Source: Mergibacter septicus (GTDB lineage: Bacteria; Pseudomonadota; Gammaproteobacteria; Enterobacterales; Pasteurellaceae). Taken from it: DNA of 64,000 nt. A program made the position numbers and the translations under genes. Under the pieces are notes generated by a model. It saw only the letters and a program-made list of their open reading frames with translations, was not told where the DNA came from and searched no databases. Below, in pieces: positions 6,741 through 51,665 of the stretch; within the stretch, counting starts at the first letter, position 1; each line of letters begins with the position of its first letter. Location: contig NZ_CP022013.1 in assembly GCF_003265225.1 (NCBI RefSeq), positions 653,001 to 717,000 on the forward strand. Reading direction: 5' to 3'.

Positions 6741-8024
6741 ATGGCAATAGAAAACGGTTTCACCTTTAAAGAGCAAGTGCGCTATTTTGAGAAAAAGCTC
6801 AATTTGCCCACCGACAGCTATTTAGATGTATTAGGCGAAGAACACGACTATTTTTTTATGGTCGCAGGGGCAAATCGTAATGAATTAGTTAATGCTTTTC
6901 GTCAAGCTGTAGATGAAGCGATCACTAACGGTGAAACGCTACAAAGCTTTCGCAAACGCTTTGATAAAATTGTCGATAAAACAGGTTGGCAGTATAAAGG
7001 TGGACGTAACTGGCGCACACGGATTATTTACGACACCAATGTGTATGGCGCTTATAACCGTGGACGGTTAAAACAGCATTTAGATTTAGCCGATGTGATG
7101 CCTTATTGGGAATACATTCATAATGATAACAGCCACCCACGACCTCATCATGTAAAACTGCACGGTACTATCCGCCCTGCAAACGATCCTTTCTGGCGTT
7201 ATTACTATCCAATCAAGGCGTATGGTTGTCATTGTACAGTAATCGCCCACGATAAAGATGATTTAGTGGAAATGGATAAGCACGTTTCACCACCTGTTGA
7301 AATTGAATTTGAAGATAAATTGGTTGGTGTGAGAAGTGGTAATCCAAGAACCATTAATCTCCCCAAAGGCTATGATGCAGGTTTTTCCCCACATAATTTT
7401 GACAACCTCACTGCAAGCAGAAATCAATCTGTGGATGCGGTGCTAATGCAAAAATTAAGTCAGTCTGAGCCACGCTTTGCGAGCCGTTTGATTAATGATG
7501 TGATTCGCCAACGCCCACAAGCAATCGCAATGTTAAACACCGCAATGACAGAGATGGTTGAAAGCGTTGCGAAAGAGAAACTCGCACGCGGTCAAATGAA
7601 GTATGTAGGTGTGCTGCATGATGATGTCTTGACTAAGTTAGATGGACTAGACAAAGCCCCGCAAAGTGCCGTGATTGCCGTGCGTGATCAAGATGTGTTA
7701 CACGCCTTACGAGAAAGCAAGCAAGCTAAAGGCATTAATCTGCCGATTGAGTTTTGGAAACAGTTACCTGAAAAATTGCGTAATCCTAAAGCGATTTTAC
7801 TCGAAAGCCAACAAAAACAGCCAACGTTAGTGTTTGTGTATGATACAGAACAAGGCAAGGTAGCGATCAAAATGGATTATGAGATACAAAAGCAAGATCC
7901 TCTAACGCAGAAAAAACAACGGGTCAAAGTAAATATGGTAAGAACGGCAAGCACAATAAAAAGCGATGTTGAATGGAATGATTTTAAGAAAAGCTATGAC
8001 TTATTATGGGGGAATTTAGATTAG
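6741..8024 (+). CDS. MuF/gp30 head morphogenesis protein with nuclease-like C-terminal domain
   Basis: A 427-residue two-domain protein. Residues 1 to about 200 are the Mu F (SPP1 gp7-like) minor head domain, with WRTRIIYDTNVYGAYNRGR and the Cys-His cluster YGCHCTV typical of the family. Residues from about 285 (KYVGVLHDDVLTKLDG) to the end look like the phage Barnase-EndoU-ColicinE5/D-RelE-like nuclease (PBECR) modules found behind MuF domains. From knowledge of that family, the tail may act as a toxin delivered with the DNA; that is inference here. No obvious immunity gene follows; the next bases are a structured RNA pair. Confidence 0.85.
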   Translation: MAIENGFTFKEQVRYFEKKLNLPTDSYLDVLGEEHDYFFMVAGANRNELVNAFRQAVDEAITNGETLQSFRKRFDKIVDKTGWQYKGGRNWRTRIIYDTNVYGAYNRGRLKQHLDLADVMPYWEYIHNDNSHPRPHHVKLHGTIRPANDPFWRYYYPIKAYGCHCTVIAHDKDDLVEMDKHVSPPVEIEFEDKLVGVRSGNPRTINLPKGYDAGFSPHNFDNLTASRNQSVDAVLMQKLSQSEPRFASRLINDVIRQRPQAIAMLNTAMTEMVESVAKEKLARGQMKYVGVLHDDVLTKLDGLDKAPQSAVIAVRDQDVLHALRESKQAKGINLPIEFWKQLPEKLRNPKAILLESQQKQPTLVFVYDTEQGKVAIKMDYEIQKQDPLTQKKQRVKVNMVRTASTIKSDVEWNDFKKSYDLLWGNLD

Positions 8025-8025
8025 T

Positions 8026-8105
8026 GCGGTGGTTTGCCTGATTCGAACAGGATAATGACGGATGAAACATTGCCGCCAACCTTTCCAGTAGGAAACCCCC
8101 ACCGC
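8026..8105 (-). ncRNA. Structured RNA unit 1, tRNA-like/C4-like
   Basis: Outer stem GCGGTGG (8026-8032) with CCACCGC (8099-8105). On the minus strand it encloses TTTCC-TACT-GGAAA, a CGG...CCG hairpin, and CCTG-TTCGAAT-CAGG, whose 7-base loop equals a tRNA T-loop. The minus strand read in frame gives ERLAAMFHPSLSCSNQAN, which I recall from leader regions of P4 ash/Icd-type genes controlled by C4/P4-CI antisense RNAs. Strand and class are therefore tentative; a normal tRNA is excluded by the D-arm and anticodon arm. Confidence 0.5.
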
Positions 8106-8106
8106 C

Positions 8107-8177
8107 GCTTGGTTTGCCTGATTCAAACAGGATAATACGGGCAGAACCGCAACCTTTCCAGTAGGAAACCTCCAAGC
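8107..8177 (-). ncRNA. Structured RNA unit 2, tandem copy
   Basis: Second copy, one base after unit 1. The outer stem is GCTTGG (8107-8112) with CCAAGC (8172-8177): the sequence differs from unit 1 but pairing is kept. The T-loop-like hairpin (CCTG-TTTGAAT-CAGG) and the TTTCC-TACT-GGAAA hairpin are almost unchanged, while the middle hairpin is shorter (CGG-6 nt-CCG). Compensatory change between adjacent copies is good evidence that the RNA fold is selected. Confidence 0.5.
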
Positions 8178-8222
8178 TCAAATACTATAAGCTAAACCCT
8201 TTTTTTACGCAATAGGTCGCCA

Positions 8223-8684
8223 ATGATTAAAATTCAGCTTAAAAACGAACTTGCCAGCAAGCAAATCGCCCAAATTGCCACTCAGTTACAAAAGCCTCGC
8301 CAGCTCTATGGCGTGTTGGGCGAAACGTTGAAAAAAATTCACCAAGAACGCTTTAAACAAGAAGTTGATCCAGAGGGAAAAAAATGGCAAGCCCTTTCCC
8401 CGCAAACCAAAGCCCAAAAAGCTAAACGTCGAAAAAGTACAAAAATTTTACGTCAAGACGGTTATTTAAGTGATAAACTTGCTTACAATTATGATGAACA
8501 TAGCGTGGAGTTTGGTAGCGATGCCAAATATGCTCGTCTTCATCAATTTGGCGGTAAGACGGGGAAAGGGAAAAAAGTTACTATTCCACAACGTCGTTGG
8601 TTAGGTGTCAGTCAACAAGATAAACAAATATTGCTGAGAAAAGCTACTGCACTTTTACAACGTCAAATTGAGCAAGTGTTATAG
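8223..8684 (+). CDS. Virion morphogenesis protein, Mu gpG-like (gp31)
   Basis: A 153-residue protein of the phage virion morphogenesis family (Mu G, P2 S-like tail completion). Family features include RFKQEVDPEGKKWQALSPQT near residues 40-60 and YARLHQFGG near residue 100. It follows gp30 and ends the first late segment: a terminator lies just after its stop. Confidence 0.82.
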   Translation: MIKIQLKNELASKQIAQIATQLQKPRQLYGVLGETLKKIHQERFKQEVDPEGKKWQALSPQTKAQKAKRRKSTKILRQDGYLSDKLAYNYDEHSVEFGSDAKYARLHQFGGKTGKGKKVTIPQRRWLGVSQQDKQILLRKATALLQRQIEQVL

Positions 8685-33112: not shown

Positions 33113-33202
33113 GGAGGAATGGTCGAGTGGTTGAAGGCACCGGTCTTGAAAACCGGCGAGGGTTTACGCCCTCCGTGAGTTCGAATCTCACTTCCTCCGC
33201 CA
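33113..33202 (+). tRNA. tRNA-Ser (anticodon TGA)
   Basis: Cloverleaf of 90 bases from GGAGGAAT to the encoded CCA. Anticodon stem CCGGT/ACCGG with loop CTTGAAA, so anticodon TGA reading UCA. A long variable arm (GAGGG...CCCTC) marks a class II tRNA, and the T-arm reads GTGAG-TTCGAAT-CTCAC. Confidence 0.96.
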
Positions 33203-51490: not shown

Positions 51491-51602
51491 CTCCGTTCTC
51501 AACGGGGTGCTTTATTTTTAATTTAATGAATAAAAATAACGCTGAGATAATACCCGTCGAACCTGATCTGATTAGTCGCAGCGAAGGGATTTGAGAGCGT
51601 TT
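51491..51602 (+). ncRNA. TPP riboswitch (THI element)
   Basis: Conserved blocks are present in order: ACGGGGTGC, GCTGAGATAATACCC, GAACCTGATCTGATTAG, and GCGAAGGGA. An AT-rich extra stem TTATTTTTA...TAAAAATAA sits in the P3 position. No terminator follows, so control is likely at translation of thiB. Confidence 0.93.
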
Positions 51603-51665
51603 TCTGCTATTCAAACTCCTTTTCAGCCACAAATATCTTTTTTATGTGATGAATAAGGACTCACT

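Follow-up and report, generated by a model that had tools for sequence, protein, structure and literature searches.

Two tandem RNA units lie on the minus strand between the gp30 and gpG-like head genes of a Mergibacter septicus prophage, and each folds as a tRNA-shaped cloverleaf. The explanation that we favor, with a probability of roughly 0.6, is that they form a small-RNA gene whose tRNA-like product would act as a mimic during lysogeny or early infection and would be titrated late by the head mRNA of the phage itself. The RNA belongs to the core of a whole phage group, runs antisense within a structural operon, and has the shape of a tRNA without a usable anticodon.

The RNA locus

The window, i.e., the whole 64,000-nucleotide stretch that was analyzed, contains the following features in the region of interest. 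Bit scores refer to R1, a covariance model of this RNA.

6741..8024, plus strand: gp30, a Mu F-like head morphogenesis gene (Pfam Phage_Mu_F, E 7e-16), whose 3' end adjoins the RNA gene
8026..8105 (80 nt), minus strand: unit 1, tRNA-like RNA with an intact core (R1, 88.5 bits; fold; covariation)
8099..8105, minus strand: unit 1 outer (acceptor-like) stem, 5' arm GCGGTGG, pairing with 8026-8032; all 7 of its 7 pairs covary across the family
8082..8095, minus strand: unit 1 D-arm-like hairpin TTTCC-TACT-GGAAA, near-invariant
8057..8077, minus strand: unit 1 variable hairpin in the anticodon-arm position, whose base pairs covary
8037..8051, minus strand: unit 1 T-arm CCTG-TTCGAAT-CAGG with a canonical T-loop (sequence; fold)
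8026..8032, minus strand: unit 1 outer stem, 3' arm CCACCGC, pairing with 8099-8105
8107..8177 (71 nt), minus strand: unit 2, the promoter-proximal copy, with T-loop TTTGAAT (R1, 73.5 bits; fold)
within 8107..8177, minus strand: unit 2 outer stem GCTTGG/CCAAGC, 6 bp (fold)
8184..8189, minus strand: -10 hexamer TATAGT of the minus-strand promoter, at the same position in nearly all homologues
8207..8212, minus strand: -35 hexamer TTGCGT, 17-nt spacer; weak in the window, TTGATT in most homologues
8223..8684, plus strand: gpG-like gene for virion morphogenesis, located farther down the late operon (Pfam Phage_tail_S, E 3e-33)

The pair starts 1 nt past the gp30 stop codon and ends 45 nt before the gpG-like gene. 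In a family search of the 1.89-Mb M. septicus genome, these two units were the sole full copies of the RNA. Elsewhere in the window, outside the prophage head region, a TPP riboswitch exceeds the Rfam threshold (51493-51607).

The initial annotation of this DNA had described a tandem pair of 80- and 71-base units with these outer stems, and both are present and fold on the minus strand as it had proposed. Minus-strand folding likewise bore out its inner hairpins (TTTCC-TACT-GGAAA, a CGG/CCG hairpin, and a 4-bp hairpin with the loop TTCGAAT or TTTGAAT), and the tRNA T-loop that it had seen on that strand is there, as TTCGAAT in unit 1 and TTTGAAT in unit 2. Its remark that the position inside a head operon is odd also holds; the units sit between Mu F (gp30) and G. 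What it missed is the minus-strand promoter, the tRNA-like cloverleaf and the core status of the RNA in the phage group.

Covariation supports the structure

Because the fold z-scores of the two window units taken singly are modest (-1.06 to -1.92), these units are statistically weak on their own, and homologues are needed to settle the structure. Over 35 diverse copies, pairing in the proposed structure extends to 96.7% of 696 cells; all seven pairs of the outer stem, and three of the four at the base of the variable hairpin, are altered on both sides. The initial annotation had named covariation in homologues as one test of its case, and had proposed outer stems that change in sequence while still pairing, and this is what the 35 copies contain. 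Doubly changed cells number 95, against 23.8 in shuffles (0 of 500 reached the observed value), and sliding the 3' partner by 1-3 columns lowers pairing to 33-45%.

The register of the fold is constant, mostly with 3 nt from the outer stem to the first hairpin and 4 nt from the T-arm to the outer stem. Among 75 copies there are 39 different versions of the variable hairpin, 12-27 nt in length, and these occur in combination with differing outer stems.

The RNA is probably read from the minus strand

Both strands of this element fold almost alike, such that the choice of strand depends on promoters, terminators and counts of G-U pairs. A sigma-70-type promoter that reads leftwards, most often TTGATT-17-TATAGT, explains why the stretch separating the RNA from the next gene is conserved. 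Among the 72 copies without a preceding unit, the -10 box is TATAGT, TATATT, TATGAT or TATACT in 61, the -35 box is TTGATT or TTGATA in 54, and the spacer measures 17 nt in 56. The -10 box ends 4-11 nt upstream of the outer stem, and the promoter score is at least 9/12 in 58 of these 72 copies, as compared with 7% of shuffles. Both boxes are kept even in relatives whose intervening sequence is unrelated (e.g., TTGCCT-17-TATAGT). The promoter in the window (TTGCGT-17-TATAGT, 8212-8184) is weak, and its score of 8/12 accounts for its absence from the list produced by a generic scan.

The two other indicators point in the same direction. Read on the minus strand, the varying helices hold 13 cells with G-U pairs and 5 with A-C mismatches; since an RNA from the plus strand would predict the reverse ratio, these counts favor the minus strand. 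Intrinsic terminators occur in two copies: in Cardiobacterium hominis (L135), a hairpin and seven T directly follow the RNA, and the terminator GGCGACTTTGTCGCCTTTTTTT follows the copy in a Necropsobacter P4-like element (L128). A simple search found no terminator within 300 nt after the gp30-linked copies of Pasteurellaceae, so that the 3' end in these copies must arise by processing or by some other route. Judged from these sequence signals, it is very probable that the RNA is encoded by a free-standing small-RNA gene on the minus strand, directed against the head operon.

Resemblance to tRNA

The helices of the minus-strand RNA are arranged as in tRNA (RF00005), with the 7-bp outer stem corresponding to the acceptor stem, TTTCC..GGAAA to the D-arm, the variable hairpin to the anticodon arm, and the T-arm coming last, after ATTAT as a 5-nt variable loop. 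An acceptor-like stem encloses D-, anticodon- and T-like arms in this four-helix cloverleaf, and both the outer stem and the third helix covary. A canonical T-arm (i.e., a TTCGAnT loop with a G-C closing pair) is present in unit 1 and in the alignment; unit 2 has TTTGAAT.

Unlike tRNA, the family lacks a canonical anticodon arm: none of the 39 distinct variable hairpins has the 5-bp stem and 7-nt loop of a decoding arm. It further differs from tRNA in having a D-hairpin loop of 4 nt, without the GG of the D-loop, and 3-4 additional nucleotides ahead of the 3' arm of the acceptor stem, and the window units score below tRNA thresholds. Over the window, ARAGORN and Rfam identified no tRNA at the units and only a tRNA-Ser at 33113, and neither program called a tRNA in copies of the main family. 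Conversely, the ordinary tRNA genes in L269 are not matched by R1, and ARAGORN detected no tRNA gene near the Cardiobacterium copies.

Several F/G junctions hold versions that are closer to tRNA. In L267 (genome G094) and L289, a tRNA-like version occupies the junction on the same strand, with an R1 score of 42 bits and, in L267, the same TTGATT-17-TATAGT promoter as in the main family. ARAGORN classifies it as a tRNA with the anticodon TTA (L267:5992-6063 and L289:3766-3837, minus strand), and its Rfam tRNA score of 26.3 bits is slightly under threshold. An anticodon TTA would read the stop codon UAA, and this RNA may be a suppressor-like tRNA or a non-functional tRNA mimic. At the F/G junction of L364 (genome G612), the Rfam tRNA model scores 36.1 bits, which is over threshold; L304 and L352 (R1, 55.9 and 29.8 bits) have D-loop- and T-loop-like features that make them intermediates. 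D-loop-like insertions are found at the position of the D-arm-like hairpin in L267/L289 and in L352.

These comparisons make a tRNA-derived fold probable, and they strongly support descent of the RNA from a tRNA or tRNA-like gene maintained at the F/G junction. The RNA of the main family is best called tRNA-derived or tRNA-like, and not a true tRNA.

Distribution among phages and prophages

At first count, the distinct copies numbered 74 and came from Pasteurellaceae, Neisseria, Cardiobacterium and Pelistega. BLAST of the unit pair matched 23 of 140 Pasteurellaceae genomes, with copies in most of the 23, and R1 likewise recovered the family in 23 of the 140. Applied to 398 genomes sampled over the phylum, R1 returned only the M. 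septicus genome itself and one match at chance level; weak R1 matches in L112, L177 and G024 were also taken as chance. Scans with exact patterns brought in viral contigs, Neisseria dentiae, N. bergeri, C. hominis, C. valvarum and a Pelistega metagenome-assembled genome.

Exact patterns were the route to most copies, which inflates the identity of the core within those patterns; this bias was avoided by two scans keyed on other parts of the RNA and by a third based on the gp30 protein alone. The T-arm is conserved in copies retrieved through other parts of the RNA. When loci were gathered by the gp30 protein only, the RNA was directly 3' of gp30 at 42 of 43 loci, and the contig of the 43rd stops inside gp30. 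Even in Neisseria phages whose gp30 is only 29-35% identical, the RNA is kept at the same place. Together, the 42 gp30 loci and the distant Neisseria phages establish the RNA as a core feature of the phage group and not an occasional passenger. Its orientation relative to the operon is identical in all gp30-linked copies. The genes between the RNA and gpG, considered as a hint of what the RNA does, have no common theme and encode small phage proteins, e.g., of the gp49/Sf6 gene 66 family. Among the plasmids and the majority of deposited phages that were searched, Pasteurella phage AFS-2018a was the sole carrier, and E. coli genomes, queried with the L352 junction only, contained no copy.

Some copies reside elsewhere. 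In the Pelistega genome (L117:201-379), two copies and a type I restriction gene, hsdR, run toward each other at the 3' end of the gene, and these copies do not follow a head gene. In Necropsobacter massiliensis (L128 / L269, genome G099), a copy lies in an integrative element adjoining tRNA-Ala, which contains an integrase, an ash gene accompanied by a genuine C4 RNA, an isrK-like RNA and a D5-type primase, followed by the tRNA-like RNA with its terminator, and then genes for a Mor activator and for gpI- and T-like Mu head proteins. This element is possibly a P4-like satellite that has acquired Mu-like functions.

The F/G junction in more distant Mu-like phages

Farther from this group, Mu-like phages have F and G genes that either adjoin without a gap (L305-L312, L314 and Pseudomonas JBD67) or are separated by about 90-130 nt. 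The best minus-strand promoter outscores the best plus-strand promoter in 22 of 27 distinct gaps. Scores above the 95% shuffle level occur eight times on the minus strand and never on the plus strand, and terminators three times and never, respectively. The T-loop string GGTTCGA is on the minus strand of 5 of 26 distinct distant junctions, versus 0.19 expected, and is absent from the plus strand; the folding bias toward the minus strand is slight (mean z of -1.4 versus -1.0). In Pseudomonas phage B3 (L380:1471-1594), the 123-nt F/G gap has a promoter-like box, GTTATAGT, and its minus strand folds strongly. The gaps in L337 and L348 resemble it, and it is suggestive that the three represent a second family of RNAs at this site. 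Based on such sequence features, the evidence is also suggestive of the F/G junction being a general slot for antisense RNAs, occupied by differing RNAs. Since the slot is also present in phage B3, which grows on PAO1, the question is open to laboratory testing.

Proposed function and alternative explanations

The mechanism that we propose begins at the sigma-70-type promoter separating the RNA from gpG, where host RNA polymerase can initiate leftward transcription. The transcript would begin at the outer stem and, in the window, include unit 2 first and then unit 1. Each unit folds as a tRNA-like cloverleaf with a hypervariable hairpin in place of the anticodon arm. The RNA, active during lysogeny or early infection, would be a tRNA mimic that binds a cellular tRNA-handling protein, most likely a nuclease or other defense factor, and this binding would protect the prophage or the infecting phage. 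Because the late operon is transcribed through the RNA gene from the opposite side, its mRNA holds an exact complement of the RNA; as the late head mRNA crosses the gene, the RNA would be titrated and switched off.

D- and T-arms that barely vary, together with a third arm that is hypervariable, fit an RNA whose tRNA-like surface is recognized by a protein, and the lack of a pairing target in 12 phage genomes, where complementarity was no better than in shuffled controls, also favors a protein partner. That the RNA acts as a protein decoy is nevertheless a tentative proposal, in which the partner is conjectural. More speculative is the extended version, in which the F/G junction would be a dedicated antisense slot where phages of Pasteurellaceae, Neisseriaceae and Cardiobacteriaceae maintain a tRNA mimic, hypervariable in its anticodon arm, that blocks tRNA-targeting defenses until late mRNA turns it off.

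An alternative is that the RNA regulates in trans by pairing with a phage or host mRNA, as do C4 and DicF, with the variable hairpin serving as the seed. Its own promoter and its location in prophages suit such a role, and the moaD-moaE junction of the same genome (C1:738989-739014, L002) matches 25 of 26 nt of unit 1 (E 2e-5) across the Shine-Dalgarno sequence (ribosome-binding site) and the start codon. This match is confined to the M. septicus genome: the moaE starts of the relatives that were examined do not have it, although several of these carry unit 1. A target retained along with a conserved core would itself need to be conserved, and we rejected moaE as a conserved antisense target. 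Moreover, the sequence of the variable hairpin shifts while its pairing persists, as in a structural arm, and complementarity to the phage genomes is at shuffle level, making regulation in trans unlikely.

Alternatively, an antisense promoter might silence leaky transcription of the head genes during lysogeny, by interference or pairing, with the structured RNA merely stabilizing the transcript. This explanation would account for gp30-linked copies always opposing the late operon at the F/G border, and for other RNAs with minus-strand promoters at this border in distant Mu-like phages. It leaves unexplained, however, the near-invariance of the D- and T-arms across four bacterial families, the copies situated off the head operon (in the P4-like element and beside hsdR), and the terminator immediately 3' of the RNA, and we regard silencing in cis as quite unlikely.

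An element of the late mRNA itself, i.e., a processing signal, attenuator or stability element between F and G on the plus strand, could be reconciled with the uniform orientation of gp30-linked copies and with the folding of the plus strand, but the minus-strand promoter, the terminators, the G-U asymmetry and the free-standing copies render it improbable. Finally, a working tRNA, perhaps a suppressor of stop codons as the ARAGORN calls in L267 and L289 might imply, is highly improbable given that window units and main family receive no tRNA call, that no variable hairpin has the form of a decoding arm, and that an additional CAAA separates the T-arm from the acceptor stem.

Comparison with known RNAs

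The tRNA mimic that we propose shares several properties with the C4 antisense RNAs of P1, P4 and their relatives (RF01695): both are structured, prophage-encoded, about 80 nt in length and common in Pasteurellaceae. The initial annotation had invoked the C4/P4-CI/ash systems when interpreting the units, an assignment that fails. Neither unit reaches 45 bits to the RF01695 covariance model, the level required of a C4 RNA, and the C4 search that it had recommended was empty over the window with the E cutoff relaxed to 5. Genuine C4 RNAs of Pasteurellaceae, detected in 43 of 61 genomes at about 45-72 bits, differ from the family in both sequence and architecture. A C4 arrangement with a complementary ash or antirepressor target just downstream was not found: long stretches complementary to the RNA were no commoner in the 12 phage genomes than in shuffles, and the neighbors are the F and G head genes. 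C4 RNAs are very common in Pasteurellaceae, with 34 matches in one genome (G087). The peptide ERLAAMFHPSLSCSNQAN, which had been read from the minus strand, is present, and it is merely the RNA gene itself read through. The string 'SCSNQA' is the translated T-arm and recurs in open frames over other copies, and the protein that the initial annotation had in view is probably a mis-annotated open frame over such an RNA element.

No family in Rfam 15 matches the RNA (a match to M23, at 15.6 bits against a threshold of 41.2, is chance), and the open-access literature searched contained neither the core sequence nor a description of such an RNA. As far as Rfam 15 and this literature extend, the RNA is undescribed.

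Phages are known to deploy RNA decoys, including small RNA anti-CRISPRs and tRNAs that counter tRNA-cutting defenses. The family resembles these in being a small phage RNA, in the position of an accessory gene, that is proposed to act against a host protein, and differs from RNA anti-CRISPRs in having no likeness to CRISPR repeats by eye. It is a specific starting point for studying how a phage RNA may interact with a host protein and, if the extended version above is true, would represent a new class of RNA-based anti-defense element that is silenced by the phage's own late mRNA. The put RNA of HK022, whose two hairpins modify RNA polymerase on the early operons, is also a structured phage RNA that starts at a promoter; in contrast to put, the RNA described here is a cloverleaf, is followed by a terminator in two hosts, and is aimed against late genes.
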